From positions 1,145,001 through 1,209,000 of the forward strand of contig CAWZYM010000283.1 in assembly GCA_963966185.1 (NCBI GenBank): a DNA stretch of 64,000 nucleotides, written 5' to 3'. Position numbers and translations under genes: made by a program. Shown here piece after piece: positions 5,519-45,592 of the stretch (its first letter is position 1; every line of letters begins with the position of its first letter). The DNA comes from Rhabditoides inermis (lineage: Eukaryota > Nematoda > Chromadorea > Rhabditida > Rhabditidae). The notes beneath the pieces were generated by a model, which ran no database searches, had not been told where the DNA came from, and saw only the letters and a program-made list of their open reading frames with translations.

Positions 5519-5555
<37 letters not shown>

Positions 5556-6330: not shown

Positions 6331-9300
6331 CGCGGATACAGCGCACAGACATGGCCAGGCAGTGAGAGCCCGCAGAGCACTCGTGGTCCATACACATTCA
6401 AGGGACCATTCAATAGAGAGAGGGATATGGACAGTTTATACAGTAAGCATGTATTATGTAGTTTCACAGTTATCATGGAATGGTGCGTGTCATGTCTACT
6501 GCTCATCGGGGACGCACATGGGGATGTGGGGGCAGGGCGCGCGGATACATCGCACAGACATGGCCAGGCAGTGAGAGCCCGCAGAGCACTCGTGGTCCAT
6601 ACACATTCAAGGGACCATTCAATAGAGAGAGGGATATGAACAGTTTATACAGTGTACGCATGTATTATGTATGTAGTATCACAGTTATCATGGAATGGTG
6701 CGTGTCATGTCTACTGCTCATCGGGAACGCACATGGGGATGTGGGGGCAGGGCGCTCGGATACAACGCACAGACATGGCCAGGCAGTGAGAGCCCGCAGA
6801 GCACTCGTGGTCCATACACAGTCAAGGGACCATTCAATAGAGAATAGAGAGAGGGATATGAACAGTTTATACAGTGTAAGCATGTATTATGTAGTATCAC
6901 AGTTATCATGGAATGGTGCGTGTCATGTCTACTGCTCATCGGGGACGCACATGGGGATGTGGGGGCAGGGCGCGCGGATACAACGCACAGACATGGCCAG
7001 GCAGTGAGAGCCCGCAGAGCACTCGTGGTCCATACACAGTCAAGGGACCATTCAATAGAGAATAGAGAGAGGGATATGAACAGTTTATACAGTGTAAGCA
7101 TGTATTATGTAGTATCACAGTTATCATGGAATGGTGCGTGTCATGTCTACTGCTCATCGGGGACGCACATGGGGATGTGGGGGCAGGGCGCGCGGATACA
7201 TCGCACAGACATGGCCAGGCAGTGAGAGCCCGCAGAGCACTCGTGGTCCATACACATTCAAGGGACCATTCAATAGAGAGAGGGATATGGACAGTTTATA
7301 CAGTAAGCATGTATTATGTAGTATCACAGTTATCATGGAATGGTGCGTGTCATGTCTACTGCTCATCGGGGACGCACATGGGGATGTGGGGGCAGGGCGC
7401 GCGGATACATCGCACAGACATGGCCAGGCAGTGAGAGCCCGCAGAGCACTCGTGGTCCATACACATTCAAGGGACCATTCAATAGAGAGAGGGATATGAA
7501 CAGTTTATACAGTGTAAGCATGTATTATGTATGTAGTATCACAGTTATCATGGAATGGTGCGTGTCATGTCTACTGCTCATCGGGGACGCACATGGGGAT
7601 GTGGGGGCAGGGCGCGCGGATACAGCGCACAGACATGGCCAGGCAGTGAGAGCCCGCAGAGCACTCGTGGTCCATACACAGTCAAGGGACCATTCAATAG
7701 AGAATAGAGAGAGGGATATGAACAGTTTATACAGTGTAAGCATGTATTATGTAGTATCACAGTTATCATGGAATGGTGCTTGTCATGTCTACTGCTCATC
7801 GGGGACGCACATGGGGATGTGGGGGCAGGGCGCGCGGATACATCGCACAGACATGGCCAGGCAGTGAGAGCCCGCAGAGCACTCGTGGTCCATACACATT
7901 CAAGGGACCATTCAATAGAGAGAGGGATATGGACAGTTTATACAGTGTAAGCATGTTCTATGTAGTATCACAGTCATCATGGAATGGTGCGTGTCATGTC
8001 TACTGCTCATCGGGAACGCACATGGGGATGTGGGGGCAGGGCGCGCGGATACAACGCACAGACATGGCCAGGCAGTGAGAGCCCGCAGAGCACTCGTGGT
8101 CCATACACAGTCAAGGGACCATTCAATAGAGAATAGAGAGAGGGATATGAACAGTTTATACAGTGTAAGCATGTATTATGTAGTATCACAGTTATCATGG
8201 AATGGTGCGTGTCATGTCTACTGCTCATCGGGGACGCACATGGGGATGTGGGGGCAGGGCGCGCGGATACAGCGCACAGACATGGCCAGGCAGTGAGAGC
8301 CCGCAGAGCACTCGTGGTCCATACACAGTCAAGGGACCATTCAATAGAGAATAGAGAGAGGGATATGAACAGTTTATACAGTAAGCATGTATTATGTAGT
8401 ATCACAGTTATCATGGAATGGTGCGTGTCATGTCTACTGCTCATCGGGAACGCACCAGTTATCATGGAATGGTGCGTGTCATGTCTACAGCTCATCGGGG
8501 ACGCACATGGGGATGTGGGGGCAGGGCGCGCGGATACAGCGCACAGACATGGCCAGGCAGTGAGAGCCCGCAGAGCACTCGTGGTCCATACACATTCAAG
8601 GGACCATTCAAAAGAGAGAAGACTATGAACAGTTTATACAATGTAAGCATGTATTATGTAGTATCACAGTTATCATAGAATGGTGCGTGTCATGTCTACT
8701 GCTCATCGGGAACGCACATGGGGATGTGGGGGCAGGGCGCGCGGATACAACGCACAGACATGGCCAGGCAGTGAGAGCCCGCAGAGCACTCGTGGTCCAT
8801 ACACAGTCAAGGGACCATTCAATAGAGAATAGAGAGAGGGATATGAACAGTTTATACAGTGTGAGAATGTATTATGTAGTATCACAGTTATCATGGAATG
8901 GTGCGTGTCATGTCTACTTCTCATCGGGGACGCAAATGGGGATGTGGGAGCAGGGCGCGCGGATACAGCGCACAGACATGGCCAGGCAGTGAGAGCCCGC
9001 GAAGCACTCGTAGTCCTTACACATTCATGAGACCATTCAATAGAGAGAGGGATATGAACAGTTTATACAGTGTAAGCATGTATTATGTATGTAATATCAC
9101 AGTTATCATGGAATGGTGCGTGTCATGTCTACTGCTCATCGGGGACGCACATGGGGATGTGGGGGCAGGGTGCGCGGATACAGCGCACAGACATGGCCAG
9201 GCAGTGAGAGCCCGCAGAGCACTCGTGGTCCATACACATTCAAGGGACCATTCAATAGAGAGAGGGATATGAACAGTTTATACAGTGTAAGCATGTATTA

Positions 9301-12300
9301 TGTAGTATCACAGTTATCATGAAATGGTGCGTGTCATGTCTACTTCTCATCGGGGACGCACATGGGGATGTGGGGGCAGGGCGCGCGGATACATCGCACA
9401 GACATGGCCAGGCAGTGAGAGCCCGCAGAGCACTCGTGGTCCATACACATTCAAGGGACCATTCAATAGAGAGAGGGATATGGACAGTTTATACAGTAAG
9501 CATGTATTATGTAGTATCACAGTTATCATGGAATGGTGCGTGTCATGTCTACTGCTCATCGGGAACGAACATGGGGATGTGGGGGCAGGGCGCGCGGATA
9601 CAGCGCACAGACATGGCCAGGCAGTGAGAGCCCGCAGAGCACTCGTGGTCCATACACATTCAAGGGACCATTCAATAGAGAGAGGGATATGAACAGTTTA
9701 TACAGTGTACGCATGTATTATGTATGTAGTATCACAGTTATCATGGAATGGTGCGTGTCATGTCTACTGCTCATCGGGAACGCACATGGGGATGTGGGGG
9801 CAGGGCGCTCGGATACAACGCACAGACATGGCCAGGCAGTGAGAGCCCGCAGAGCACTCGTGGTCCATACACAGTCAAGGGACCATTCAATAGAGAATAG
9901 AGAGAGGGATATGAACAGTTTATACAGTGTAAGCATGTATTATGTAGTATCACAGTTATCATGGAATGGTGCGTGTCATGTCTACTGCTCATCGGGGACG
10001 CACATGGGGATGTGGGGGCAGGGCGCGCGGATACAACGCACAGACATGGCCAGGCAGTGAGAGCCCGCAGAGCACTCGTGGTCCATACACAGTCAAGGGA
10101 CCATTCAATAGAGAATAGAGAGAGGGATATGAACAGTTTATACAGTGTAAGCATGTATTATGTAGTATCACAGTTATCATGGAATGGTGCGTGTCATGTC
10201 TACTGCTCATCGGGGACGCACATGGGGATGTGGGGGCAGGGCGCGCGGATACATCGCACAGACATGGCCAGGCAGTGAGAGCCCGCAGAGCACTCGTGGT
10301 CCATACACATTCAAGGGACCATTCAATAGAGAGAGGGATATGGACAGTTTATACAGTAAGCATGTATTATGTAGTATCACAGTTATCATGGAATGGTGCG
10401 TGTCATGTCTACTGCTCATCGGGGACGCACATGGGGATGTGGGGGCAGGGCGCGCGGATACATCGCACAGACATGGCCAGGCAGTGAGAGCCCGCAGAGC
10501 ACTCGTGGTCCATACACATTCAGGGGACCATTCAATAGAGAGAGGGATATGAACAGTTTATACAGTGTAAGCATGTATTATGTATGTAGTATCACAGTTA
10601 TCATGGAATGGTGCGTGTCATGTCTACTGCTCATCGGGGACGCACATGGGGATGTGGGGGCAGGGCGCGCGGATACATCGCACAGACATGGCCAGGCAGT
10701 GAGAGCCCGCAGAGCACTCGTGGTCCATACACATTCAAGGGACCATTCAATAGAGAGAGGGATATGGACAGTTTATACAGTAAGCATGTATTATGTAGTA
10801 TCACAGTTATCATGGAATGGTGCGTGTCATGTCTACTGCTCATCGGGGACGCACATGGGGATGTGGGGGCAGGGCGCGCGGATACATCGCACAGACATGG
10901 CCAGGCAGTGAGAGCCCGCAGAGCACTCGTGGTCCATACACATTCAGGGGACCATTCAATAGAGAGAGGGATATGAACAGTTTATACAGTGTAAGCATGT
11001 ATTATGTATGTAGTATCACAGTTATCATGGAATGGTGCGTGTCATGTCTACTGCTCATCGGGAACGCACCAGTTATCATGGAATGGTGCGTGTCATGTCT
11101 ACAGCTCATCGGGGACGCACATGGGGATGTGGGGGCAGGGCGCGCGGATACAGCGCACAGACATGGCCAGGCAGTGAGAGCCCGCAGAGCACTCGTGGTC
11201 CATACACATTCAAGGGACCATTCAAAAGAGAGAAGACTATGAACAGTTTATACAATGTAAGCATGTATTATGTAGTATCACAGTTATCATAGAATGGTGC
11301 GTGTCATGTCTACTGCTCATCGGGAACGCACATGGGGATGTGGGGGCAGGGCGCGCGGATACAACGCACAGACATGGCCAGGCAGTGAGAGCCCGCAGAG
11401 CACTCGTGGTCCAAACACAGTCAAGGGACCATTCAATAGAGAATAGAGAGAGGGATATGAACAGTTTATACAGTGTGAGAATGTATTATGTAGTATCACA
11501 GTTATCATGGAATGGTGCGTGTCATGTCTACTTCTCATCGGGGACGCAAATGGGGATGTGGGAGCAGGGCGCGCGGATACAGCGCACAGACATGGCCAGG
11601 CAGTGAGAGCCCGCGAAGCACTCGTAATCCTTACACATTCATGAGACCATTCAATAGAGAGAGGGATATGAACAGTTTATACAGTGTAAGCATGTATTAT
11701 GTATGTAATATCACAGTTATCTCGGAATGGTGCGTGTCATGTCTACTGCTCATCGGGGACGCACATGGGGATGTGGGGGCAGGATGCGCGGATACAGCGC
11801 ACAGACATGGCCAGGCAGTGAGAGCCCGCAGAGCACTCGTGGTCCATACACATTCAAGGGACCATTCAATAGAGAGAGGGATATGAACAGTTTATACAGT
11901 GTAAGCATGTATTATGTAGTATCACAGTTATCATGAAATGGTGCGTGTCATGTCTACTTCTCATCGGGGACGCACATGGGGATGTGGGGGCAGGGCGCGC
12001 GGATACAGCGCACAGACATGGCCAGGCAGTGAGAGCCCGCGAAGCACTCGTGGTCCATACACATTCAAGAGACCATTCAATAGAGAGAGGGATATGAACA
12101 GTTCATACAGTGTAAGCATGTATTATGTATGTAATATCACAGTTATCATGGAATGGTGCGTGTCATGTCTACTGCTCATCGGGGACGCACATGGGGATGT
12201 GGGGGCAGGGCGCGCGGATACAGCGCACAGACATGGCCAGACAGTGAGAGCCCGCAGAGCACTCGTGGTCCATACACATTCAAGGGACCATTCAATAGAG

Positions 12301-15300
12301 AGAGGGATATGGACAGTTTATACAGTAAGCATGTATTATGTAGTATCACAGTTATCATGGAATGGTGCGTGTCATGTCTACTGCTCATCGGGGACGCACA
12401 TGGGGATGTGGGGGCAGGGCGCGCGGATACATCGCACAGACATGGCCAGGCAGTGAGAGCCCGCAGAGCACTCGTGGTCCATACACATTCAAGGGACCAT
12501 TCAATAGAGATAGGGATATGGACAGTTTATACAGTAAGCATGTATTATGTAGTATCACAGTTATCATGAAATGGTGCGTGTCATGTCTACTGCTCATCGG
12601 GGACGCACATGGGGATGTGGGGGCAGGGCGCGCGGATACATCGCACAGACATGGCCAGGCAGTGAGAGCCCGCAGAGCACTCGTGGTCCATACACATTCA
12701 AGAAACCATTCAATAGAGAGAGGGATATGGACAGTTTATACAGTAAGCATGTATTATGTATGTAGTATCACAGTTATCATGGAATGGTGCGTGTCATGTC
12801 TACTGCTCATCGGGAACGAACATGGGGATGTGGGGGCAGGGCGCGCGGATACAGCGCACAGACATGGCCAGGCAGTGAGAGCCCGCAGAGCACTCGTGGT
12901 CCATACACATTCAAGGGACCATTCAATAGAGAGAGGGATATGAACAGTTTATACAGTGTAAGCATGTATTATGTATGTAGTATCACAGTTATCATGGAAT
13001 GGTGCGTGTCATGTCTACTGCTCATCGGGAACGCACATGGGGATGTGGGGGCAGGGCGCGCGGATACAACGCACAGACATGGCCAGGCAGTGAGAGCCCG
13101 CAGAGCACTCGTGGTCCATACACAGTCAAGGGACCATTCAATAGAGAATAGAGAGAGGGATATGAACAGTTTATACAGTGTAAGCATGTATTATGTAGTA
13201 TCACAGTTATCATGGAATGGTGCGTGTCATGTCTACTGCTCATCGGGGACGCACATGGGGATGTGGGGGCAGGGCGCGCGGATACAACGCACAGACATGG
13301 CCAGGCAGTGAGAGCCCGCAGAGCACTCGTGGTCCATACACATTCAAGAAACCATTCAATAGAGAGAGGGATATGGACAGTTTATACAGTAAGCATGTAT
13401 TATGTATGTAGTATCACAGTTATCATGGAATGGTGCGTGTCATGTCTACTGCTCATCGGGAACGAACATGGGGATGTGGGGGCAGGGCGCGCGGATACAG
13501 CGCACAGACATGGCCAGGCAGTGAGAGCCCGCAGAGCACTCGTGGTCCATACACATTCAAGGGACCATTCAATAGAGAGAGGGATATGAACAGTTTATAC
13601 AGTGTAAGCATGTATTATGTATGTAGTATCACAGTTATCATGGAATGGTGCGTGTCATGTCTACTGCTCATCGGGAACGCACATGGGGATGTGGGTGCAG
13701 GGCGCGCGGATACAACGCACAGACATGGCCAGGCAGTGAGAGCCCGCAGAGCACTCGTGGTCCATACACAGTCAAGGGACCATTCAATAGAGAATAGAGA
13801 GAGGGATATGAACAGTTTATACAGTGTAAGCATGTATTATGTAGTATCACAGTTATCATGGAATGGTGCGTGTCATGTCTACTGCTCATCGGGGACGCAC
13901 ATGGGGATGTGGGGGCAGGGCGCGCGGATACAACGCACAGACATGGCCAGGCAGTGAGAGCCCGCAGAGCACTCGTGGTCCATACACAGTCAAGGGACCA
14001 TTCAATAGAGAATAGAGAGAGGGATATGAACAGTTTATACAATGTAAGCATGTATTATGTAGTATCACAGTTATCATAGAATGGTGCGTGTCATGTCTAC
14101 TGCTCATCGGGAACGCACATGGGGATGTGGGGGCAGGGCGCGCGGATACAACGCACAGACATGGCCAGGCAGTGAGAGCCCGCAGAGCACTCGTGGTCCA
14201 TACACAGTCAAGGGACCATTCAATAGAGAATAGAGAGAGGGATATGAACAGTTTATACAGTGTGAGAATGTATTATGTAGTATCACAGTTATCATGGAAT
14301 GGTGCGTGTCATGTCTACTTCTCATCGGGGACGCAAATGGGGATGTGGGAGCAGGGCGCGCGGATACAGCGCACAGACATGGCCAGGCAGTGAGAGCCCG
14401 CGAAGCACTCGTAGTCCTTACACATTCATGAGACCATTCAATAGAGAGAGGGATATGAACAGTTTATACAGTGTAAGCATGTATTATGTATGTAATATCA
14501 CAGTTATCATGGAATGGTGCGTGTCATGTCTACTGCTCATCGGGGACGCACATGGGGATGTGGGGGCAGGGTGCGCGGATACAGCGCACAGACATGGCCA
14601 GGCAGTGAGAGCCCGCAGAGCACTCGTGGTCCATACACATTCAAGGGACCATTCAATAGAGAGAGGGATATGAACAGTTTATACAGTGTAAGCATGTATT
14701 ATGTAGTATCACAGTTATCATGAAATGGTGCGTGTCATGTCTACTTCTCATCGGGGACGCACATGGGGATGTGGGGGCAGGGCGCGCGGATACAGCGCAC
14801 AGACATGGCCAGGCAGTGAGAGCCCGCGAAGCACTCGTGGTCCATACACATTCAAGAGACCATTCAATAGAGAGAGGGATATGAACAGTTCATACAGTGT
14901 AAGCATGTATTATGTATGTAATATCACAGTTATCATGGAATGGTGCGTGTCATGTCTACTGCTCATCGGGGACGCACATGGGGATGTGGGGGCAGGGCGC
15001 GCGGATACAGCGCACAGACATGGCCAGACAGTGAGAGCCCGCAGAGCACTCGTGGTCCATACACATTCAAGGGACCATTCAATAGAGAGAGGGATATGGA
15101 CAGTTTATACAGTAAGCATGTATTATGTAGTATCACAGTTATCATGGAATGGTGCGTGTCATGTCTACTGCTCATCGGGGACGCACATGGGGATGTGGGA
15201 ACAGGGCGCGCGGATACATCGCACAGACATGGCCAGGCAGTGAGAGCCCGCAGAGCACTCGTGGTCCATACACATTCAAGGGACCATTCAATAGAGATAG

Positions 15301-18300
15301 GGATATGGACAGTTTATACAGTAAGCATGTATTATGTAGTATCACAGTTATCATGAAATGGTGCGTGTCATGTCTACTGCTCATCGGGGACGCACATGGG
15401 GATGTGGGGGCAGGGCGCGCGGATACATCGCACAGACATGGCCAGGCAGTGAGAGCCCGCAGAGCACTCGTGGTCCATACACATTCAAGAAACCATTCAA
15501 TAGAGAGAGGGATATGGACAGTTTATACAGTAAGCATGTATTATGTATGTAGTATCACAGTTATCATGGAAAGGTGCGTGTCATGTCTACTGCTCATCGA
15601 AGACGAACATGGGGATGTGGGGGCAGGGCGCGCGGATACAGCGCACAGACATGGCCAGGCAGTGAGAGCCCGCAGAGCACTCGTGGTCCATACACATTCA
15701 AGGGACCATTCAATAGAGAGAGGGATATGAACAGTTTATACAGTGTAAGCATGTATTATGTATGTAGTATCACAGTTATCATGGAATGGTGCGTGTCATG
15801 TCTACTGCTCATCGGGAACGCACATGGGGATGTGGGGGCAGGGCGCGCGGATACAACGCACAGACATGGCCAGGCAGTGAGAGCCCGCAGAGCACTCGTG
15901 GTCCATACACAGTCAAGGGACCATTCAATAGAGAACAGAGAGAGGGATATGAACAGTTTATACAGTGTAAGCATGTATTATGTAGTATCACAGTTATCAT
16001 GGAATGGTGCGTGTCATGTCTACTGCTCATCGGGGACGCACATGGGGATGTGGGGGCAGGGCGCGCGGATACAACGCACAGACATGGCCAGGCAGTGAGA
16101 GCCCGCAGAGCACTCGTGGTCCATACACATTCAAGAAACCATTCAATAGAGAGAGGGATATGGACAGTTTATACAGTAAGCATGTATTATGTATGTAGTA
16201 TCACAGTTATCATGGAATGGTGCGTGTCATGTCTACTGCTCATCGGGAACGAACATGGGGATGTGGGGGCAGGGCGCGCGGATACAGCGCACAGACATGG
16301 CCAGGCAGTGAGAGCCCGCAGAGCACTCGTGGTCCATACACATTCAAGGGACCATTCAATAGAGAGAGGGATATGAACAGTTTATACAGTGTAAGCATGT
16401 ATTATGTATGTAGTATCACAGTTATCATGGAATGGTGCGTGTCATGTCTACTGCTCATCGGGAACGCACATGGGGATGTGGGGGCAGGGCGCGCGGATAC
16501 AACGCACAGACATGGCCAGGCAGTGAGAGCCCGCAGAGCACTCGTGGTCCATACACAGTCAAGGGACCATTCAATAGAGAATAGAGAGAGGGATATGAAC
16601 AGTTTATACAGTGTAAGCATGTATTATGTAGTATCACAGTTATCATGGAATGGTGCGTGTCATGTCTACTGCTCATCGGGGACGCACATGGGGATGTGGG
16701 GGCAGGGCGCGCGGATACAACGCACAGACATGGCCAGGCAGTGAGAGCCCGCAGAGCACTCGTGGTCCATACACAGTCAAGGGACCATTCAATAGAGAAT
16801 AGAGAGAGGGATATGAACAGTTTATACAGTGTAAGCATGTATTATGTAGTATCACAGTTATCATGGAATGGTGCGTGTCATGTCTACTGCTCATCGGGGA
16901 CGCACATGGGGATGTGGGGGCAGGGCGCGCTAATACATCGCACAGACATGGCCAGGCAGTGAGAGCCCGCAGAGCACTCGTGGTCCATACACATTCAAGG
17001 GACCATTCAATAGAGAGAGGGATATGGACAGTTTATACAGTAAGCATGTATTATGTAGTATCACAGTTATCATGGAATGGTGCGTGTCATGTCTACTGCT
17101 TATCGGGGACGCACATGGGGATGTGGGGGCAGGGCGCGCGGATACATCGCACAGACATGGCCAGGCAGTGAGAGCCCGCAGAGCACTCGTGGTCCATACA
17201 CATTCAAGGGACCATTCAATAGAGAGAGGGATATGGACAGTTTATACAGTAAGCATGTATTATGTAGTATCACAGTTATCATGGAATGGTGCGTGTCATA
17301 TCTACTGCTCATCGGGGACGCACATGGGGATGTGGGGGCAGGGCGCGCGGATACATCGCACAGACATGGCCAGGCAGTGAGAGCCCGCAGAGCACTCGTG
17401 GTCCATACACATTCAAGGGACCATTCATTAGAGAGAGGGATATGGACAGTTTATACAGTAAGCATGCATTATGTAGTATCACAGTTATCATGGAATGGTG
17501 CGTGTCATGTCTACTGCTCATCGGGGACGCACATGGGGATGTGGGGGCAGGGCGCGCGGATACATCGCACAGACATGGCCAGGCAGTGAGAGCCCGCAGA
17601 GCACTCGTCGTCCATACACGTTCAAGGGACCATTCAATATAGAGAGGAATATGAACAGTTTATACAGTGTAAGCATGTATTATGTAGTATCACAGTTATC
17701 ATGGAATGGTGCGTGTCATGTCTACTGCACATCGGGAACGCACATGGGGATGTGGGGGCAGGGCGCGCAGATACAGCGCACAGACATGGCCAGGCAGTGA
17801 GAGCCCGCAGAGCACTCGTGGTCCATACACATTCAAGGGACCATTCAATAGAGAGAGGGATATGAACAGTTTATACAGTGTAAGCATGTATTATGTATGT
17901 AGTATCACAGTTATCATGGAATGGTGCGTGTCATGTCTACTGCACATCGGGGACGCACATGGGGATGTGGGGGCAGGGCGCAGATACAGCGCACAGACAT
18001 GGCCAGGCAGTGAGAGCCCGCAGAGCACTCGTGGTCCATACACATTCAAGGGACCATTCAATAGAGAGAGGGATATGAACAGTTTATACAGTAAGCATGT
18101 ATTATGTATGTAGTATCACAGTTATCATGGAATGGTGCGTGTCATGTCTACTGCTCATCGGGAACGCACATGGGGATGTGGGGGCAGGGCGCGCGGATAC
18201 AACGCACAGACATGGCCAGGCAGTGAGAGCCCGCAGAGCACTCGTGGTCCATACACAGTCAAGGGACCATTCAATAGAGAATAGAGAGAGGGATATGAAC

Positions 18301-28385: not shown

Positions 28386-28460
28386 TGGGGTGGCTAGCGC
28401 AGTGGATGTGTGGATGTGCGCGCTGCTATCATGCGGTCCCGAGTTCAATCCTCTCGGCGG
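28386..28460 (+). repeat. tRNA-derived SINE-like segment
   Basis: GGTGGCTAGCGCAGTGGATG resembles a Pol III A box and GAGTTCAATCC a B box, about 50 nt apart. The segment does not fold into a convincing tRNA, so I call it SINE-like and not a tRNA gene. Confidence 0.4.
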
Positions 28461-32500: not shown

Positions 32501-35500
32501 ATACAGTGTAAGCATGTTCTATGTAGTAACACAGTCATCATAGAATGGTGCGTGTCATGTCTACTGCTCATCGTGGACGCACATGGGGATGTGGGGGCGG
32601 GGCGCGCGGATACAGCGCACAGACATGGCCAGGCAGTGAGAGCCCGCAGAGCACTCGTGGTCCATACACACTCAAGAGACCATTCAATAGAGAGAGGGAT
32701 ATGAACAGTTTATACAGTGTAAGCATGTACTATGTAGTATCACAGTCATCATGGAATGGTGCGTGTCATGTCTACTGCTCATTGGGGACGCACATGGGGA
32801 TGTGGGGGCAGGGCGCGCGGATACAGCGCACAGACATGGCCAGGCAGTGAGAGCCCGCAGAGCACTCGTGGTCCATACACACTCAAGAGACCATTCAATA
32901 GAGAGAGGGATATGAACAGTTTATACAGTGTAAGCATGTTCTATGTAGTATCACAGTCATCATGGAATGGTGCGTGTCATGTGTACTGCTCATTGGGGAC
33001 GCACATGGGGATGTGGGGGCAGGGCGCGCGGATACAGCGCACAGACATGGCCAGGCAGTGAGAGCCCGCAGAGCACTCGTGGTCCATACACACTCAAGAG
33101 ACCATTCAATAGAGAGAGGGATATGAACAGTTTATACAGTGTAAGCATGTTCTATGTAGTATCACAGTCATCATGGAATGGTGCGTGTCATGTCTACTGC
33201 TCATCGGGGACGCACATGGGGATGTGGGGGCAGGGCGCGCGGATACAGCGCACAGACATGGCCAGGCAGTGAGAGCCCGCAGAGCACTCGTGGTCCATAC
33301 ACATTCAAGGGATCATTCAATAGAGAGAGGAATATGGACAGTTTATACAGTGTAATCATGTATTATGTAGTATCACAGTTATCATGGAATGGTGCGTGTC
33401 ATGTCAACAGCTCATCGGGGACGCACATGGTGATGTGGGAGCAGGGCGCGCGGATACAGTTCACAGACATGGCCAGGCATTGATAGCCCGCAAAGCACTC
33501 GTGGTCCATACACCTTCAAGGGACCATTCAATAGAGAGAGGAATATGGACAGTTTATACAGTGTAAGCATGTATTATGTAGTATCACAGTTATCATGGAA
33601 TGGTGCGTGTCATGTCTACTGCTCATCGGGGACGCACATGGGGATGTGGGGGCAGGGCGCGCGGATACAGCGCACAGACATGGCCAGGCAGTGAGAGCCC
33701 GCAGAGCACTCGTGGTCCATACACATTCAAGGGACCATTTAATAGAGAGAGGAATATGGACAGTTTATAAAGTGTAAGCATGTATTATGTAGTATCACAG
33801 TTATCATGGAATGGTGCGTGTCATGTCTACTGCTCATCGGGGACGCACATGGGGATGTGGGGGCAGGGCGCGCGGATACAGCGCACAGACATGGCCAGGC
33901 AGTGAGAGCCCGCAGAGCACTCGTGGTCCATACACATTCAAGGGACCATTCAATAGAGAGAGGAATATGGACAGTTTATACAGTGTAAGCATGTAATATG
34001 TAGTATCACAGTTATCATAGAATGGTGCGTGTCATGTCTACTGCTCATCGGGGACGCACATGGGGATGTGGGGGCAGGGCGCGCGGATACAGCGCACAGA
34101 CATGGCCAGGCAGTGAGAGCCCGCAGAGCACTCGTGGTCCATACACATTCAAGGGACCATTCAATAGAGAGAGGGATATGAACAGTTTATACAGTGTAAG
34201 CATGTTCTATGTAGTATCACAGTCATCATAGAATTGTGCGTGTCATGTCTACTGCTCATCGGGGACGCACATGGGGATGTGGGGGCAGGGCGCGCGGATA
34301 CAGCGCACAGACATGGCCAGGCAGTGAGAGCTCGCAGAGCACTCGTGGTCCATACATATTCAAGGGACCATTCAATAGAGAGAGGGATATGAACAGTTTA
34401 TATAGTGTAAGCATGTTCTATGTAGTATCACAGTCATCATGGAATGGTGCGTGTCATGTCTACTGCTCATCGGGGACACACATGGGGATGTGGGGGCAGG
34501 GCGCGCGGATACAGCGCACAGACATGGCCAGGCAGTGAGAGCCCGCAGAGCACTCGTGGTCCATACACATTCAAGGGACCATTCAATAGAGAGAGGAATA
34601 TGGAAAGTTTATACAGTGTAAGCATGTATTATGTAGTATCACAGTTATCATGGAATGGTGCGTGTCATGTCTACTGCTCATCGGGGACGCACATGGGGAT
34701 GTGGGGGCAGGGCGCGCGGATACAGCGCACAGACATGGCCAGGCAGTGAGAGCCCGCAGAGCACTCGTGGTCCATACACACTCAAGAGACCATTCAGTAG
34801 AGAGAGGGATGTGAACAGTTTATATAGTGTAAGCATGTTCTATGTAGTATCACAGTCATCATGGAATGGTGCGTGTCATGTGTACTGCTCATTGGGGACG
34901 CACATGGGGATGTGGGGGCAGGGCGCGCGGATACAGCGCACAGACATGGTCAGGCATTGATAGCCCGCAGAGCACTCGTGGTCCATACACACTCAAGGGA
35001 CCATTCAATAGAGAGAGGGATATGAACAGTTTATACAGTGTAAGCATGTTCTATGTAGTATCACAGTCATCATAGAATGGTGCGTGTCATGTCTACTGCT
35101 CATCGGGGACGCACATGGTGATGTGGGAGCAGGGCGCGCGGATACAGTTCACAGACATGGCCAGGCATTGATAGCCCGCAAAGCACTCGTGGTCCATACA
35201 CCTTCAAGGGACCATTCAATAGAGAGAGGAATATGGACAGTTTATACAGTGTAAGCATGTATTATGTAGTATGACAGTTATCATGGAATGGTGCGTGTCA
35301 TGTCTACTGCTCATCGGGGACGCACATGGGGATGTGGAGGCAGGGCGCGCGGATACAGCGCACAGACATGGCCAGGCAGTGAGAGCTCGCAGAGCACTCG
35401 TGGTCCATACACATTCAAGGGACCATTCAATAGAGAGAGGAATATGGACAGTTTATAAAGTGTAAGCATGTATTATGTAGTATCACAGTTATCATGGAAT

Positions 35501-37737
35501 GGTGCGTGTCATGTCTACTGCTCATCGGGGACGCACATGGGGATGTGGGGGCAGGGCGCGCGGATACAGCGCACAGACATGGCCAGGCAGTGAGAGCCCG
35601 CAGAGCACTCGTGGTCCATACACATTCAAGGGACCATTCAATAGAGAGAGGAATATGGACAGTTTATACAGTGTAAGCATGTAATATGTAGTATCACAGT
35701 TATCATAGAATGGTGCGTGTCATGTCTACTGCTCATCGGGGACGCACATGGGGATGTGGGGGCAGGGCGCGCGGATACAGCGCACAGACATGGCCAGGCA
35801 GTGAGAGCCCGCAGAGCACTCGTGGTCCATACACATTCAAGGGACCATTCAATAGAGAGAGGGATATGAACAGTTTATACAGTGTAAGCATGTTCTATGT
35901 AGTATCACAGTCATCATAGAATTGTGCGTGTCATGTCTACTGCTCATCGGGGACGCACATGGGGATGTGGGGGCAGGGCGCGCGAATACAGCGCACAGAC
36001 ATGGCCAGGCAGTGAGAGCTCGCAGAGCACTCGTGGTCCATACACATTCAAGGGACCATTCAATAGAGAGAGGGATATGAACAGTTTATATAGTGTAAGC
36101 ATGTTCTATGTAGTATCACAGTCATCATGGAATGGTGCGTGTCATGTCTACTGCTCATCGGGGACACACATGGGGATGTGGGGGCAGGGCGCGCGGATAC
36201 AGCGCACAGACATGGCCAGGCAGTGAGAGCCCGCAGAGCACTCGTGGTCCATACACATTCAAGGGACCATTCAATAGAGAGAGGAATATGGAAAGTTTAT
36301 ACAGTGTAAGCATGTATTATGTAGTATCACAGTTATCATGGAATGGTGCGTGTCATGTCTACTGCTCATCGGGGACGCACATGGGGATGTGGGGGCAGGG
36401 CGCGCGGATACAGCGCACAGACATGGCCAGGCAGTGAGAGCCCGCAGAGCACTCGTGGTCCATACACACTCAAGAGACCATTCAGTAGAGAGAGGGATGT
36501 GAACAGTTTATATAGTGTAAGCATGTTCTATGTGGTATCACAGTCATCATGGAATGGTGCGTGTCATGTGTACTGCTCATTGGGGACGCACATGGGGATG
36601 TGGGGGCAGGGCGCGCGGATACAGCGCACAGACATGGTCAGGCATTGATAGCCCGCAGAGCACTCGTGGTCCATACACACTCAAGGGACCATTCAATAGA
36701 GAGAGGGATATGAACAGTTTATACAGTGTAAGCATGTTCTATGTAGTATCACAGTCATCATAGAATGGTGCGTGTCATGTCTACTGCTCATCGGGGACGC
36801 ACATGGGGATGTGGGGGCAGGGCGCGCGGATACAGCTCACAGACATGGCCAGGCAGTGAGAGCCCGCAGAGCATTCGTGGTCCATACACACTCAAGAGAC
36901 CATTCGATAGAGAGAGGGATATGAACAGTTTATACAGTGTAAGCATGTACTAAGTAGTATCACAGTCATCATGGAATGGTGCGTGTCATGTCTACTGCTC
37001 ATTGGGGACGCACATGGGGATGTGGGGGCAGGGCGCGCGGATACAGCGCACAGACATGGCCAGGCAGTGAGAGCCCGCAGAGCACTCGTGGTCCATACAC
37101 ACTCAAGAGACCATTCAATAGAGAGAAGGATATGAACAGTTTATACAGTGTAAGCATGTTCTATGTAGTATCACAGTCATCATGGAATGGTGCGTGTCAT
37201 GTCTACTGCTCATCGGGGACGCACATGGGGATGTGGGGGCAGGGCGCGCGGATACAGCGCACAGACATGGCCAGGCAGTGAGAGCCCGCAGAGCACTCGT
37301 GGTCCATACACACTCAAGAGACCATTCAATAGAGAGAGGGATCTGAACAGTTTATACAGTGTAAGCATGTTCTATGTAGTATCACAGTCATCATGGAATG
37401 GTGGGTGTCATGTCTACTGCTCATCGGGGACGCACATGGGGATGTGGGGGCAGGGCGCGCGGATACAGCGCACAGACATGGCCAGGCAGTGAGAGCCCGC
37501 AGAGCACTCGTGGTCCATACACATTCAAGGGACCATTCAATAGAGAGAGGAATATGGACAGTTTATACAGTGTAATCATGTATTATGTAGTATCACAGTT
37601 ATCATGGAATGGTGCGTGTCATGTCAACAGCTCATCGGGGACGCACATGGTGATGTGGGAGCAGGGCGCGCGGATACAGTTCACAGACATGGCCAGGCAT
37701 TGATAGCCCGCAGAGCACTGGTGACCCTCGCACACAT
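29532..37737 (-). repeat. Exon-derived tandem satellite, block 2 (about 39 monomers, mostly 211 bp)
   Basis: Same monomer family as block 1 but more uniform in length. Many copies carry sequence variants rare in block 1, such as CATGTTCTATG, TCATTGGGG and CACTCAAGAG. An eight-monomer unit of 1,688 bp is duplicated (for example 33.8-35.1 kb against 35.5-36.8 kb). Block 2 ends without a break as exon 5 of TIL gene A: its last monomer switches from satellite sequence to CACACATCTGAAACG, which is the exon 5 acceptor on the minus strand. Confidence 0.95.
31506..31616 (-). CDS. Representative monomer micro-ORF in block 2
   Basis: ATG at 31616, TAG ending at 31506. It is 36 codons with the same six-cysteine pattern as the block 1 example. 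On the minus strand the adjacent upstream monomer sequence supplies a TATAAA-like box; in this particular copy it has changed (TTTATAAAGTG on the plus strand), so not every monomer keeps it intact. Expression is unknown. Confidence 0.35.
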   Translation of the reverse strand: MCMDHECSAGSHCLAMSVRCIRAPCPHIPMCVPDEQ

Positions 37738-38798
37738 CTGAAACGAAAATTGTTTCATGAATTGCTTCACTTTTTAGCCATTTATTACTTATGTTCGGAA
37801 TCAACGGAACAGTTTCAAGCCAGTCTCTAAAATCTACGAGACACTCACCCTTCTCTTCCACCTCGGTAGTAGTCTGTACAGGGCTGCCGATCAGCTTGTC
37901 CTTGGTCTCCGGACAAATGGCGACACACTTTCCGGAATAAGGGTCCCTCTTGTAGCCATATTGACACTGACACTTGCCAGGCATACAAAACGCGAAGCAC
38001 TTCTGAAAAAGAGAAGTAGAAAGAAAGAGAGGGAGAGAGAGGGAGAGGAAATAGAGAGAGGAAATGAGAGAAAGACAGAGACCCACCTTGTTCACGTCTT
38101 CACCGCATGTCGGTTCGCATAACGTAGCGCACTCGTTGAACTGTTCATAGGCAGGGCCTGTTTGAAGTTTAATTAATACATTAAACATCTTATCAAGACC
38201 GTTGTTCATCCACATTCATCGAAACCAAAAATGCCTGATGGATCCTTGCAAAGGAGATCGAATGAGACCGACAAGAGAACGTGTCGTCACCATCACTCTT
38301 TCTCCGCGCGCTCGAAGAACCTTTCGAAGACTACCGTGGTACTTAAAAGAAAGTCGTGAAAAAGAACGGAACCTACATTTTTCGTTTACCTTGTTTCTTG
38401 AATCTTTGAACGATTCAACAACCAGTTTGAGAAAGTATTGTGATTTGTTTTTTTGGAGATATTATTTTTATCAACTAGTAAAACTGAGTTTTTCAAACAA
38501 AAATCGAGAACTCACAATTCGGCGACTCTGACTGCGCGAGCGCCACTCCAGCCAGAAGAACGAAGACAATCTGAAAAAGTACAACATAGAAAAGAACAAA
38601 AAAATCTGTGAGTAACTGTTGATTCACACAATTCTCGCAGGCTGAAAGGGGTAAACATGCTAAAGAAGATCTATGAAGAGTCCGAGGAGAAAGTGTCAGA
38701 GGAGGGTGTGTGAAAAAGTGTAATCGAGAAAAGTGTGATGATAAACAGTGTAACCAGGAGTATAATATAATCAAAAATCTACATACCATTCGTTGCAT
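37619..38798 (-). CDS. TIL gene A: secreted TIL protein with an extra six-cysteine C-terminal module (five exons)
   Basis: Exons on the minus strand: 38798-38787, 38570-38516, 38157-38087, 38002-37849 and 37737-37619. All phases agree, giving about 136 residues. Exon 1 encodes MQRM; exon 2 a signal peptide ending in ALA; exons 3 and 4 a ten-cysteine TIL domain followed by a Thr/Glu-rich linker; exon 5 a separate module with six cysteines (C..C.....C......C....C.....C) ending PDELLT. TIL domains inhibit serine proteases; I do not recognise the C-terminal module. Intron 3 is GA/CT-rich. Exon 5 is also the last unit of the satellite array, so gene and repeat are physically continuous. Gene A is about 98-99% identical to gene B, 3,393 bp away. 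Confidence 0.85.
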
Positions 38799-39062: not shown

Positions 39063-41130
39063 TGTAAACATTTATGATGTAGTATCACAGTCATCATGGA
39101 ATGGTGCGTGTCATGTCTACTGCTCATTGGGGACGCACATGGGGATGTGGGGGCAGGGCGCGCGGATACAGCGCACAGACATGGCCAGGCAGTGAGAGCC
39201 CGCAGAGCACTCGTGGTCCATACACACTCAAGAGACCATTCAATAGAGAGAGGGATATGAACAGTTTATACAGTGTAAGCAACTACTATGTAGTATCACA
39301 GTCATCATGGAATGGTGCGTGTCATTTCTACTGCTCATTGGGGACGCACATGGGGATGTGGGAGCAGGGCGCGCGGATACAGCGCACAGACATGGCCAGG
39401 CAGTGAGAGCCCGCAGAGCACTCGTGGTCCATACACACTCAAGAGACCATTCAGTAGAGAGAGGGATATGAACAGTTTATACAGAGTAAGCATGTTCTAT
39501 GTAGTATCACAGTCATCATGGAATGGTGCGTGTCATGTCTACTGCTCATTGGGGACGCACATGGGGATGTGGGGGCAGGGCGCGCGGATACAGCGCACAG
39601 ACATGGCCAGGCAGTGAGAGCCCGCAGAGCACTCGTGGTCCATACACACTCAAGAGACCATTCAATAGAGAGAGGGATAGGAACAGTTTATACAGTGTAA
39701 GCAACTACTATGTAGTATCACAGTCATCATGGAATGGTGCGTGTCATTTCTACTGCTCATTGGGGACGCACATGGGGATGTGGGAGCAGGGCGCGCGGAT
39801 ACAGCGCACAGACATGGCCAGGCAGTGAGAGCCCGCAGAGCACTCGTGGTCCATACACACTCAAGAGACCATTCAGTAGAGAGAGGGATATGAACAGTTT
39901 ATACAGAGTAAGCATGTTCTATGTAGTATCACAGTCATCATGGAATGGTGCGTGTCATGTGTACTGCTCATTGGGGACGCACATGGGGATGTGGGGGCAG
40001 GGCGCGCGGATACAGCGCACAGACATGGCCGGGCAGTGAGAGCCCGCAGAGCACTCGTGGTCCATACACACTCAAGAGACCATTCAATAGAGAGAGAGGG
40101 ATATGAACAGTTTATACAGTTTAAGCATGTTCTATGTAGTATCACAGTCATCATGGAATGGTGCGTGTCATGTCTACTGCTCATCGGGGACGCACATGGG
40201 GATGTGGGGGCAGGGCGCGCGGATACAGCGCACAGACATGGCCGGGCAGTGAGAGCCCGCAGAGCACTCGTGGTCCATACACACTCAAGAGACCATTCAA
40301 TAGAGAGAGGGATATGAACAGTTTATACAGTGTAAGCATGTACTATGTAGTATCACAGTCATCATGGAATGGTGCGTGTCATGTCTACTGCTCATCGGGG
40401 ACGCACATGGGGATGTGGGGGCAGGGCGCGCGGATACAGCGCACAGACATGGCCAGGCAGTGAGAGCCCGCAGAGCACTCGTGGTCCATACACATTCAAA
40501 GGACCATTCAATAGAGAGAGGGATATGAACAGTTTATATAGTGTAAGCATGTTCTATGTAGTATCACAGTCATCATGGAATGGTGCGTGTCATGTCTACT
40601 GCTCATCGGGGACGCACATGGGGATGTGGGGGCAGGGCGCGCGGATACAGCGCACAGACATGGCCGGGCAGTGAGAGCCCGCAGAGCACTCGTGGTCCAT
40701 ACACACTCAAGAGACCATTCAATAGAGAGAGGGATATGAACAGTTTATATAGTGTAAGCATGTTCTATGTAGTATCACAGTCATCATGGAATGGTGCGTG
40801 TCATGTCTACTGCTCATCGGGGACGCACATGGGGATGTGGGGGCAGGGCGCGCGGATACAGCGCACAGACATGGCCAGGCAGTGAGAGCCCGCAGAGCAC
40901 TCGTGGTCCACACACATTCAAGGGACCATTCAATAGAGAGAGGAATATGGACAGTTTATACAGTGTAATCATGTATTATGTAGTATCACAGTTATCATGG
41001 AATGGTGCGTGTCATGTCAACAGCTCATCGGGGACGCACATGGGGATGTGGGGGCAGGGCGCGCGGATACAGTTCACAGACATGGCCAGGCATTGATAGC
41101 CCGCAGAGCACTGGTGACCCTCGCACACAT
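39063..41130 (-). repeat. Exon-derived satellite, block 3 (about 10 monomers)
   Basis: The array resumes beyond the gene A promoter region at GTAAACATTTATGATGTAG, the position of a monomer that follows the 3' flank, and ends as exon 5 of TIL gene B. A two-monomer unit is repeated at 422 bp (39312 against 39734). Confidence 0.95.
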
Positions 41131-42191
41131 CTGAAACGAAAATTGTTTCATGAATTGCTTCACTTTTTAGCCATTTATTACTTATGTTCGGAATCAACGG
41201 AACAGTTTCAAGCCAGTCTCTAAAATCTACGAGACACTCACCCTTCTCTTCCACCTCGGTAGTAGTCTGTACAGGGCTGCCGATCAGCTTGTCCTTGGTC
41301 TCCGGACAAATGGCGACACACTTTCCGGAAGAAGGGTCCCTCTTGTAGCCATATTGACACTGACACTTGCCAGGCATACAAAACGCGAAGCACTTCTGAA
41401 AAAGAGAAGTAGAAAGAAAGAGAGGGAGAGAGAGGGAGAGGAAATAGAGAGAGGAAATGAGAGAAAGACAGAGACCCACCTTGTTCACGTCTTCACCGCA
41501 TGTCGGTTCGCAAAACGTAGCGCACTCGTTGAACTGTTCATAGGCAGGGCCTGTTTGAAGTTTAATTAATACATTAAACATCTTATCAAGACCGTTGTTC
41601 ATCCACATTCATCGAAACCAAAAATGCCTGATGGATCCTTGCAAAGGAGATCGAATGAGATCGACAAGAGAACGTGTCGTCACCATCACTCTTTCTCCGC
41701 GCGCTCGAAGAACCTTTCGAAGACTACCGTGGTACTTAAAAGAAAGACGTGAAAAAGAACGGAACCTACATTTTTCGTTTACCTTGATTCTTGAATCTTT
41801 GAACGATTCAACAACCAGTTTGAGAAAGTATTGTGATTTGTTTTTTTGGAGATCTTATTTTTAGCAACTAGTAAAACTGAGTTTTTCAAACAAAAATCGA
41901 GAACTCACAATTCGGCGACTCTGACTGCGCGAGCGCCACTCCAGCCAGAAGAACGAAGACAATCTGAAAAAGTACAACATAGAAAAGAACAAAAAAATCT
42001 GTGAGTAACTGTTGATTCACACAATTCTCGCAGGCTGAAAGGGGTAAACATGCTAAAGAAGATCTATGAAGAGTCCGAGGAGAAAGTGTCAGAGGAGGGT
42101 GTGTGAAAAAGTGTAATCGAGAAAAGTGTGATGATAAACAGTGTAACCAGGAGTATAATATAATCAAAAATCTACATACCATTCGTTGCAT
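41012..42191 (-). CDS. TIL gene B: near-identical duplicate of gene A
   Basis: Exons 42191-42180, 41963-41909, 41550-41480, 41395-41242 and 41130-41012, each offset by exactly 3,393 bp from gene A, about 136 residues. Visible protein differences are few: Phe for Leu between the third and fourth cysteines' neighbours (CATFC against CATLC), Ser for Tyr before SGK, and PCPHIP against PCSHIT in the last module. Cysteines, signal peptide and splice sites are intact. The duplication includes the promoter and flanking monomers, so it arose as a block of about 3.4 kb containing gene and array. Confidence 0.85.
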
Positions 42192-42455: not shown

Positions 42456-43044
42456 TGTAAACATTTATGATGTAGTATCACAGTCATCATGGAATGGTGC
42501 GTGTCATGTCTACTGCTCATTGGGGACGCACATGGGGATGTGGGGGCAGGGCGCGCGGATACAGCGCACAGACATGGCCAGGCAGTGAGAGCCCGCAGAG
42601 CACTCGTGGTCCATACACACTCAAGAGACCATTCAATAGAGAGAGGGATATGAACAGTTTATACAGTGTAAGCAACTACTATGTAGTATCACAGTCATCA
42701 TGGAATGGTGCGTGTCATTTCTACTGCTCATTGGGGACGCACATGGGGATGTGGGAGCAGGGCGCGCGGATACAGCGCACAGACATGGCCAGGCAGTGAG
42801 AGCCCGCAGAGCACTCGTGGTCCATACACACTCAAGAGACCATTCAGTAGAGAGAGGGATATGAACAGTTTATACAGAGTAAGCATGTTCTATGTAGTAT
42901 CACAGTCATCATGGAATGGTGCGTGTCATGTGTACTGCTCATCGGGGACGAACATGGGGATGTGGGGGCAGGGCGCGCGGATACAGCGCACAGACATGGC
43001 CAGGCAGTGAGAGCCCGCAGAGCACTCGTGACCCTCGCACACAT
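42456..43044 (-). repeat. Exon-derived satellite, block 4 (about 3 monomers)
   Basis: A short stub of array between the gene B upstream flank and TIL copy C. Its final monomer has become exon 5 of copy C. Confidence 0.93.
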
Positions 43045-43388
43045 CTGAAACGAAAATTATTTCATGAATTGCTTCACCTTTTAGGCATTTATTACGTCCA
43101 TATGCTCGGAATCAACGGAACAGTTTCAAACCAGTCTCTAAAATCTACGAGACACTCACCCTCCTCCTCCACCTCGGTAGTAGTCGGTACAGGGCTGCCG
43201 ATCAGCTTGTCCTTGGTCTCCGGACAGATAGCGACACACTTTCCGGAAGAAGCATCCCTCTTGTAGCCATACTCACACTGACACTTGGCGGGCATGCACA
43301 TCATGATGCAGGGCTGAAAAAGCACGGTTGGGAGAGGGGGGAGGTGAGAGAAAGAGAGGGACAGAGAGCGAGAAAGAGAGAGATACAT

Positions 43389-43432
<44 letters not shown>

Positions 43433-43849
43433 GGGTTCTTAGCTACTCGGTAGAGCCTAACGCTTGTTCGGACCTCTGCGCTCTCCGTGAAAGCACACTA
43501 TTTCGTCTTCCACTCGCGTGTTCGAGCCTCTACAGCATCGATAGACGAAAACAGGAACCTTGATCGAAGCGCGTTCGAGGCTCGATAGAGGGGTAACAAA
43601 AGGTTGATAGAGGGTACCTCGAACAGAGGCGACCCTCTATCAACCTTCTAACAACCCTCTATCGCTCGGATTGTAATGGGGTCATTCGTTAGGGTCAAAC
43701 GCTCTTGTTTGGGTCTATCGATGCTATAGAGGCTCGAACACGTGAGTGGAAGACGAAATAGTGTGCTTTCACGGAGAGCGCAGAGGTCCGAACATGCGTT
43801 AGGGTCTGCCGAGTAGCTAAGAACCCATTAGAAAGAGATACATAGAGAG

Positions 43850-43897
<48 letters not shown>

Positions 43898-43968
43898 CCT
43901 GTTCTCGTCTTCTCCGCAAGTCGGCTCGCAAGCAGTTGCGCACTCGTTGAACTGCTCGTATTGAGGAC
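42926..43968 (-). pseudogene. TIL copy C: 5'-truncated TIL gene with a satellite-type last exon
   Basis: Exons 3 (43968-43898), 4 (43313-43160) and 5 (43044-42926) remain with good splice sites and the same lengths as in genes A and B (71, 154 and 119 nt). Exons 1 and 2, hence the start codon and signal peptide, are missing: a LINE fragment lies directly upstream. Exon 5 begins with the gene-type VCEGHEC but continues with satellite-type residues (GSHC, VRC). In it the last cysteine codon has become Phe and the satellite TAG has become TAC, so the frame runs on to TGA. Intron 3 carries a 394 bp MITE. It could be functional only if an alternative 5' end exists. Confidence 0.75.
43433..43826. 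mobile_element. MITE in intron 3 of TIL copy C
   Basis: The terminal inverted repeats are about 115 bp. The element starts GGGTTCTTAGCTACTCGG and ends CCGAGTAGCTAAGAACCC, with an internal region rich in CCCTCTATC words. It encodes nothing. GA microsatellites flank both sides, so any target-site duplication is hidden. Confidence 0.8.
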
Positions 43969-43984
43969 CTGTAAATGAGTATGC

Positions 43985-44670
43985 ACATGTACACAAAACT
44001 ATTTCCAAACTAGCATCTAAAATGAACACGAGCCCTGACAATATTTCGCATGCCTTTTTGAAAAATACGGTTGATACGATTTCGCTCCCACTCTCTATTC
44101 TTTTTTCAATGTCTACTTCCGTATGCAATGTCCCTGAGATTTGGAAACTGGCGTATATAAAACCTCTTTATAAAAAGGGGGCTCGTGATGATCCACTCAA
44201 CTACCGGCCTATCAGCCTTATAAGTAGTGTTGCGAAAGTTCTGGAACGCATATGCGTCAAGCAAATTACGGAATTTCTTGAGAGGAATTCGCTTCTCACA
44301 CCTAGGCAATTTGGCTTTCGCAAGAATAGATCTACAAACGCTCAACTTATTGAGTGTCATAGTCACTGGTTGAAACACCTGTCTAATGGAATGGTTATCG
44401 ATTGTATATACTTTGATTTCAATAAGGCATTCGATACTATTAATCACAACTTGCTATACAAAAAGTTGCATTCGCTGGGAATTCGCGGTAACGTATTGGG
44501 ATGGATTAGAAGTTTCTTGACCGACCGTCGCCAACAAGTAATGGTCGGTGATGAGCTTTTCGTCTCCACGGCTTGTCAACTGTGGTGTACCACAGGGGTC
44601 TTGCCTAGGTCCCATACTGTTCAATGTATATATTAATGATATCATCTCCAATCTTCCCGATTCATGAAAC
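43985..44670 (+). pseudogene. Fragment of a LINE reverse transcriptase (Jockey/CR1-like)
   Basis: The frame 44022-44636 shows the non-LTR RT core: DDPLNYRPISLIS, FGFRKNRSTNAQLIE and YFDFNKAFDTINH. A one-base frameshift near 44575 separates these from CGVPQGSCLGPILFNVYIND in the next frame. The YADD catalytic block, the thumb and the 3' end are missing, as is the endonuclease, so it is dead. It lies where exons 1-2 of TIL copy C would be expected and ends at the intron tail of the lone exon D. Confidence 0.85.
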
Positions 44671-44692
44671 AATTCATGAAACAATTTTCGTT

Positions 44693-45592
44693 TCAGATGT
44701 GTGCGAGGGTCACGAGTGCTCTGCGGGCTATCAATGCCTGGCCATGTCTGTGAACTGTATCCGCGCGCCCTGCCCCCACATATCCATGTGCGTCCCCGAT
44801 GAGCAGTAGACATGACACGCACCATTCCATGATAACTGTGATACTACATACATAATACATGCTTACACTGTATAAACTGTTCATATCCCTCTCTCTGTTC
44901 TCTATTGAATGGTCCCTTGAATGTGTATGGACCACGAGTGCTCTGCGGGCTCTCACTGCCTGGCCATGTCTGTGCGCTGTATCCGCGCGCCCTGCCCCCA
45001 CATCCCCATGTGCGTCCCCGAAGAGCAGTAGACATGACACGCACCATTCCATGATAACTGTGATACTACATACATAATACATGCTTACACTGTATAAACT
45101 GTTCATATCCCTCTCTCTATTCTCTATTGAATGGTCCCTTGAATGTGTATGGACCACGAGTGCTCTGCGGGCTCTCACTGCCTGGCCATGTCTGTGCGCT
45201 GTATCCGCGCGCCCTGCCCCCACATCCCCATGTGCGTCCCCGATGAGCAGTAGACATGACACGCACCATTCCATGATAACTGTGATACTACATACATAAT
45301 ACATGCTTACACTGTATAAACTGATCATATCCTTCTCTCTATTCTCTATTGAATGGTCCCTTGAATGTGTATGGACCACGAGTGCTCTGCGGGCTCTCAC
45401 TGCCTGGCCATGTCTGTGCGCTGTATCTGTGCGCTGTTGAACGACGCGGCTGCAACGAGGATTAGAAGGAGACAAAGACGAGAAGGAACAACGAGAGAGA
45501 GGACAGCACAGTGGTTGACACTCACACGACAGCGACGCGAGTGATAGGAGTATAGAGATGGAGACCGCTAAGGTCCCAGAGCGGCTGACCAT
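44693..45592 (-). CDS. 299-codon frame: signal-peptide-like start running antisense through the satellite
   Basis: It begins in unique DNA at 45592. The first 26 or so residues look like a signal peptide (basic start, SISILLSLASLSC), followed by a short cysteine-rich stretch (PLCCPLSRC). From about residue 54 it enters the inverted satellite and reads its antisense frame three times, because the 222 bp unit keeps frame, ending inside the antisense of exon D. The N-terminal part could be the first exon of a real secreted protein and the remainder mere read-through. It starts 173 bp downstream of the acid phosphatase stop, on the same strand. Confidence 0.3.
   Translation of the reverse strand: MVSRSGTLAVSISILLSLASLSCECQPLCCPLSRCSFSSLSPSNPRCSRVVQQRTDTAHRHGQAVRARRALVVHTHSRDHSIENREKDMISLYSVSMYYVCSITVIMEWCVSCLLLIGDAHGDVGAGRADTAHRHGQAVRARRALVVHTHSRDHSIENRERDMNSLYSVSMYYVCSITVIMEWCVSCLLLFGDAHGDVGAGRADTAHRHGQAVRARRALVVHTHSRDHSIENRERDMNSLYSVSMYYVCSITVIMEWCVSCLLLIGDAHGYVGAGRADTVHRHGQALIARRALVTLAHI
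44697..44809 (+). pseudogene. TIL fragment D: lone last exon in inverted orientation
   Basis: After an intact acceptor (TTTTCGTTTCAG) the exon encodes DVCEGHECSAGYQC and the rest of the six-cysteine module, ending PDEQ and TAG. It is gene-type at the asparagine before the fourth cysteine but satellite-type at the stop. No upstream TIL exons remain on the plus strand. Confidence 0.75.
44871..44876 (+). promoter_or_regulatory. TATAAA motif of a satellite monomer
   Basis: TATAAA sits 50 nt upstream of the monomer ATG at 44921, close to the spacing of about 60 nt between TATATAAA and ATG in the true TIL genes. A promoter role is inference. Confidence 0.3.
44921..45031 (+). CDS. Monomer micro-ORF, inverted block, copy 1
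   Basis: 36 codons from ATG 44921 to TAG 45031, with all six cysteines. Asp near the C-terminus is replaced by Glu. The TATAAA upstream is intact. Candidate only. Confidence 0.35.
   Translation: MCMDHECSAGSHCLAMSVRCIRAPCPHIPMCVPEEQ
45143..45253 (+). CDS. Monomer micro-ORF, inverted block, copy 2
   Basis: Exactly 222 bp downstream of copy 1 and again a complete six-cysteine 36-codon frame ending PDEQ. Candidate only. Confidence 0.35.
   Translation: MCMDHECSAGSHCLAMSVRCIRAPCPHIPMCVPDEQ

Follow-up and report, generated by a model that had tools for sequence, protein, structure and literature searches.

The locus studied here raises the question of how a long tandem array comes to lie directly behind a group of small genes, with a repeat unit that reads as the last exon of those same genes. 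The window, the whole stretch of DNA that was analysed, comprises 64,000 bp (positions 1,145,001-1,209,000 of contig C283, which is 3.05 Mb long, in a genome of 172.6 Mb and 599 contigs). The locus study area covers 164 kb of C283, that is, the window and ten flanking pieces, with 10 kb reading N. We propose that the array is a young, local, satellite-like repeat, which quite probably originated on the spot when 9-bp direct repeats at the 3' end of a TIL gene gave rise to a duplication, and which then grew by unequal exchange. The exon origin of the array is well supported; the microhomology origin, which draws on two relic loci, is likely.

The repeat unit and its arrays

Tandem Repeats Finder (TRF) reports a single array at 6331-37723 with a period of 211 and 146 copies, about 31 kb in all, and additional arrays at 39077-41116, 42470-43030 and 44711-45434. 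A blastn search with one 211-bp unit gives 224 unit matches in 11 blocks, which extend over about 125 kb of C283 (1,104,288-1,229,056); 155 of the 224 lie inside the window. The original prediction had counted roughly 150 tandem copies beside their parents. The main array is interrupted by an insertion. The arrays of the window are as follows.

6331..27290, minus strand: main array, part distal to gene A; 99 unit matches, mostly 209-218 bp
27291..29529, no strand assigned: insertion of about 2.2 kb, splitting the main array at unit position 169/170
29530..37723, minus strand: main array, part nearest gene A; 39 unit matches, the first unit being gene A exon 5
39063..41116, minus strand: array behind gene B; 10 unit matches, the first unit being gene B exon 5
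42456..43030, minus strand: array behind gene C; 3 unit matches, the first unit being gene C exon 5
44711..45434, plus strand: inverted array; 4 unit matches (three of 222 bp, one partial), continuous with an orphan exon 5

The insertion, with a self-inverted repeat at 29151-29531, looks like one or more mobile elements. All blocks are on the minus strand, which is the gene sense, with the exception of 44711-45434; the predicted common polarity of array and genes thus holds for every block except this one.

Most units are 209-222 bp long. The 205 complete units span 209-225 bp, and 87 of them have exactly 211 bp; near gene A this length is found in 36 of 38 complete units, and there the main array shows an 8-unit periodicity. 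Read in gene sense, the consensus unit consists of 99 nt of exon 5, from CACGAG to the stop codon, followed by 112 nt of 3' flank. The unit is collinear with the exon, its stop codon and the 3' flank, as expected if each minus-strand monomer were exon 5 plus its flank; however, the unit begins 14 nt into exon 5, and neither these first 14 nt nor the splice acceptor is included. At the same time, exon 5 of genes A, B, C, D and E and the inverted orphan exon are each the first unit of their own array, confirming the continuity that had been described for A, B and C. The derivation of the array from a terminal exon is borne out by this collinearity and by the six exons that lead arrays.

The acceptor together with the exon 5 start (16 nt, at most one mismatch) occurs seven times in the 164 kb, 10 kb of which read N: in genes A, B, C, D and E, in the orphan and in relic 2 (see below), and never within the arrays. 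All six array-leading exons keep the acceptor region, with TTTAAG in gene E and TTTCAG in the others. Since the acceptor is absent after the first unit, array copies cannot be spliced like the true exon 5.

The repeat shows head-to-tail units in long arrays (146 copies; 11 blocks) and homogenised units with higher-order blocks (mean pairwise divergence among the 205 units 4.2%; block repeats and the 8-unit period). It does not appear to be abundant across chromosomes, as the copies found, 46,025 bp in all, lie in one locus of 125 kb. A genome-wide DNA search with the repeat, in which the best candidates were scored and very common words skipped, listed 88 matches, all on C283; Rfam gave no match. 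The array is therefore satellite-like, not a major satellite.

The TIL genes and their neighbours

The genes and gene remnants in the window are as follows.

2513..2774, plus strand: second convergent TIL relative, with exons 3 and 4 but no exon 5 found
5433..5697, plus strand: convergent TIL relative; exons 3 and 4 located, ending without exon 5
6045..6296, minus strand: gene-copy remnant, 85% identical to 38190-38444 (gene A between exons 3 and 2)
37622..38570, minus strand: gene A; exons 5 (37622-37738), 4 (37850-38002), 3 (38087-38158) and 2 (38517-38570, encoding the signal peptide)
41015..41963, minus strand: gene B; exons 5 (41015-41131), 4 (41243-41395), 3 (41480-41551) and 2 (41910-41963, signal peptide)
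42929..43969, minus strand: gene C; exons 5 (42929-43045), 4 and 3
43965..44636, plus strand: match to a LINE-type reverse transcriptase (RVT_1), a reading frame between gene C and the orphan exon
44696..44803, plus strand: orphan exon 5, inverted, with acceptor (tblastn)

Gene B has five exons, with a 12-nt exon 1 placed by reading near 42180-42191. Genes D and E lie outside the window and each carry exon 5 (tblastn); their exons are positioned by similarity matches rather than by base-by-base splice sites. Exons 2-5 with an array behind them are present in four of the five genes (A, B, D and E). Exon 2 of gene C was sought and not found, and this gene is probably truncated; its intron 3 also holds a self-inverted insertion of about 400 bp (43433-43826).

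The spliced exons 3-5 of gene B score 26.9 bits against the TIL family (PF01826), above the curated cut-off of 24.5. The spliced protein matches the chymotrypsin inhibitor 1ccv, which we take to be from honeybee, with an E value of 1.7e-4, and weakly 1eai (E 0.017). As in these inhibitors of solved structure, there is a TIL domain, encoded here by exons 3-4; unlike them, the genes add through exon 5 a cysteine-rich tail without a match. We thus predict the parent genes to be small TIL genes of the protease-inhibitor type. For the tail no relative was found in the protein collection, Pfam, PDB or NCBIfam, and whole-protein searches gave two candidates, neither of which passed; nematodes are perhaps hardly covered in these collections. 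The exon 5 cysteine pattern was sought in pieces L001-L006, L047-L050 and L055-L057 and in the window outside 6300-45500, and was met in relic 1 alone. In the genome-wide protein search, the best 150 of 224 candidates were scored and all 150 lie on C283; because array copies filled this search, exon 5 relatives may exist elsewhere in the genome.

Six TIL relatives lie on the plus strand; five of them show both exon 3 and exon 4, and the sixth shows exon 4 only. By tblastn none of the six has a convincing match to exon 5, and the two that were read fully have a stop codon after exon 4. The remnant at 6045-6296 sits between the main array and a convergent TIL gene, and its likeness to gene A suggests the upstream part of a further five-exon gene copy. 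Outside the window, at 1,136,041-1,136,489 of C283, an array is directly joined to a possible exon 4 of a TIL-like gene; the exon 4 match is weak (12 residues, E 0.36), the exon 3 match has an E value of 3e-5, and the array apparently replaces the 3' end of this gene.

A candidate junction and the proposed origin of the array

Two short loci outside the window may preserve the junction that gave rise to the repeat. These relics run into one common flank, which matches the genome at these two places only; relic 1 consists of one unit and part of another, and relic 2 is an exon 5 shortened by an internal deletion. The 9-bp sequence GAGTGCTCT stands in the relic flanks 133 and 134 bp behind the stop codon, and it is also found near the exon 5 start, where the unit passes from flank to exon. 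Up to the junction, the relic flank aligns with the unit flank: for relic 1 the score is 43, which none of 300 shuffles equals, and for relic 2 it is 34.5, which 2 of 300 shuffles reach. Shuffled flanks share at least 9 bp with the exon start in 48 of 20,000 cases, in a test chosen after the match had been noticed. Shared by the relic flanks and exon 5, this sequence could be the microhomology expected of such a duplication, but the relics may differ from the state in which the array began.

The relics sit behind convergent TIL genes that are paralogous to those beside the main array. Relics 1 and 2 align with each other through the flank as well, and at the main array the alignment ends before the flank. 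Across the intron end and exon start, relic 2 is 91% identical to gene E over 78 bp (64 intron, 14 exon), whereas genes A, C and D match it at the same place over 13 bp only. Exon 5 of gene E, in turn, differs from the array consensus by one silent coding change and 5 flank changes. Both observations would fit a start at a gene of the E type, with the 9-bp repeats bounding the duplicated segment. The breakpoint is uncertain, as the 14-17 nt just before GAGTGCTCT in the unit match both exon and flank poorly. In the locus examined, every intact exon 5 that was found has an array behind it, and since the relics are damaged or partial, both may be worn array ends.

The original prediction had started the array from a deletion of the promoter and exons 1-4 in a tandem gene cluster. 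The data speak against this route in three ways: the six leading exons keep the acceptor region and later units have none; exons 2-5 are still found ahead of the array in genes A, B, D and E; and the flanks of both relics suggest that 9-bp direct repeats gave rise to a tandem duplication. We propose the following course instead. At the start, one copy of GAGTGCTCT would lie near the exon 5 start and a second about 115-135 bp past the stop codon. By slippage or repair involving both copies, the segment they enclose would be duplicated, that is, exon 5 minus the acceptor and the first 14 nt, plus the stop codon and 3' flank. The gene would not have been damaged, since all copies come after the only acceptor and the first stop codon. 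Unequal exchange would then lengthen and homogenise the array, and sequence would be exchanged between gene exons and nearby units. Blocks of gene plus array have been duplicated in tandem, and once by inversion; over 1,401 bp, genes A and B and the sequence around them share 99.5% identity.

The same 9-bp repeats could also have served to excise exon 5 and its flank as a circle, which was amplified by rolling-circle replication and reintegrated by homology at gene ends. Such a circle predicts the same junction, and orphan arrays as well as arrays at several genes would follow from it easily; however, the copies found all lie within 125 kb of C283 and are mostly continuous with parent exons, and local duplication is enough. 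We consider the circle improbable.

It could also be asked whether the time direction was the reverse, with an existing tandem repeat captured as the last exon of a TIL gene by exonisation. The convergent TIL relatives without exon 5, the arrays in the cluster without a complete adjacent gene, and the lack of a recognised exon 5 homologue in the searched collections would all suit such a capture. Yet the arrays are without the acceptor and the first 14 nt of exon 5, 202 of the 205 units are open in frame to a stop at or two codons past the consensus place, and the repeat is found at this gene cluster only, among the genome matches listed. There is thus little to recommend a satellite-first order, and the direction from exon to array probably holds.

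Coding constraint, exchange and possible function

The distinct changes in the coding part of 199 units, the six first units being left out, comprise 52 nonsynonymous, 17 synonymous and 3 stop changes (at or creating a stop codon), against 50.5, 18.1 and 3.4 expected without constraint (p=0.92); for all 205 units the observed ratio is 54:20:4, with 54.8:19.5:3.7 expected. Variable sites are fewer in the coding part (57/99) than in the flank (83/112; p=0.013). This difference is at odds with full neutrality; mutation may be slower in the coding part, the genes may convert the units, or there may be weak constraint. A cysteine codon is lost in 16 of the 199 units. That most copies still have an open frame is probably due to the young age of the array; the three units without an open stretch to the usual stop are frameshifted.

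A polyprotein running through the array was rejected, as the unit lengths modulo 3 fall into classes of 21, 88 and 96 of 205 and 202 of the 205 units stop. The units are also unlikely to act as alternative last exons, the acceptor being missing. Unit position 200 is G in 24 of the 199 units, which by reading gives a weak GAG acceptor in the phase of exon 5; this G could permit rare splicing into the array.

Within the distal main array, 10 units recur without substitution at a distance of 6.2 kb, and 14 units are 99.8% identical at a distance of 7.5 kb; such near-identical blocks suggest recent block exchange. A unit with most of gene A's coding differences lies 4.2 kb into the gene A array. 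Gene C is a mosaic: its exons 3-4 are closest to E (4.2% and 7.3%), its intron 4 is closest to D (1.7%), and its exon 5 has 2 coding differences from the array consensus. From this mosaic and the gene-like units we infer exchange between genes and arrays.

Such exchange also bears on the possibility that the array is functional, either supplying exon 5 variants through gene conversion or giving rise to small RNAs against TIL genes; such a role would be compatible with the origin proposed above. The gene-like units as far as 4.2 kb from gene A, the E-like, D-like and array-like parts of gene C and the inverted array adjoining the genes could all be expected of it. On the other hand, the codon changes match the expectation without constraint, the unit lengths break the frame, and exchange of this kind is expected even without function; a functional array thus has only a slim chance of being correct. 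We regard the array as most likely a passenger that is tolerated owing to its position after the sole acceptor and the first stop codon. A more far-reaching idea, which is tentative and for now rather doubtful, is that the array represents the earliest stage of a satellite. It would still be joined to its founding exon and trade sequence with it, such that homogenisation steers the protein tail in several genes.

An assembly artefact inflating a short repeat is very unlikely: very similar blocks, such as the 10 units without substitution at 6.2 kb, could be misassembled, but the contig is 3.05 Mb long and several arrays differ in end points and variants.

Relation to known gene-derived repeats

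The birth of a satellite is rarely visible, because the parent sequence and the satellite are usually no longer together. At this locus the parent exon, the arrays, the flank relics and the candidate junction are all on one contig, and the birth model thus gives base-level predictions. The locus also suggests that gene ends may be permissive sites, where the protein is not altered by copies that follow the sole acceptor and the first stop codon. Macrosatellites of the D4Z4/DUX4 type have kilobase units with a whole open reading frame in each. They share with the array a reading frame in every unit but, unlike it, are not known to be a fragment of an adjacent multi-exon gene.

In the openly accessible literature searched, no satellite from a protein-coding exon was found. 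The suggested source of the CapA satellite of New World monkeys is an intron of NOS1AP (cited in PMC8210747); according to that account, part of a protein-coding gene, single copy elsewhere, was amplified in one lineage, as here, but the source was an intron and not coding sequence. In Ciona, a satellite is reported as derived from the U2 snRNA gene (PMC4640811), likewise a gene-derived tandem repeat, with an RNA gene as its source. The nearest exon precedent in the literature searched is on the Y chromosome of the Drosophila simulans clade, where kl-2 exons 8-12 are duplicated at the 3' end of the gene and microhomology-mediated repair has been proposed (PMC8794474). There, too, terminal exons are copied beside a functional gene; the pieces described are multi-exon and on the Y chromosome, and the relevant part of that paper describes no homogenised one-exon satellite. 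A 2025 review gives transposable elements, rDNA spacers, micro- and minisatellites and older satellites as satellite sources (PMC12692304), that is, pre-existing sequence that is tandemly amplified and homogenised, as in our array; unlike our case, the source list in section 4.1 of that review has no protein-coding exon. In theory, any sequence may seed a satellite, as stated in an earlier review (PMC5615363). Gene-derived satellites, from an intron and an snRNA gene, are thus already in print, and a protein-coding exon as the source is what differs here.

Outside the arrays, the window has a second RVT_1 reverse transcriptase reading frame (56240-56800) and a 39-bp minisatellite of about 11 copies (58598-59033). 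Genome-wide, a TTAGGC 24-mer has 3,423 forward and 2,209 reverse matches, and a TTAGG 25-mer has no match in the genome. COX1 contains 12 in-frame TGA codons and gives 531 aa under the invertebrate mitochondrial code; a TTAGGC telomere together with this COX1 protein is presumably of the chromadorean nematode type.
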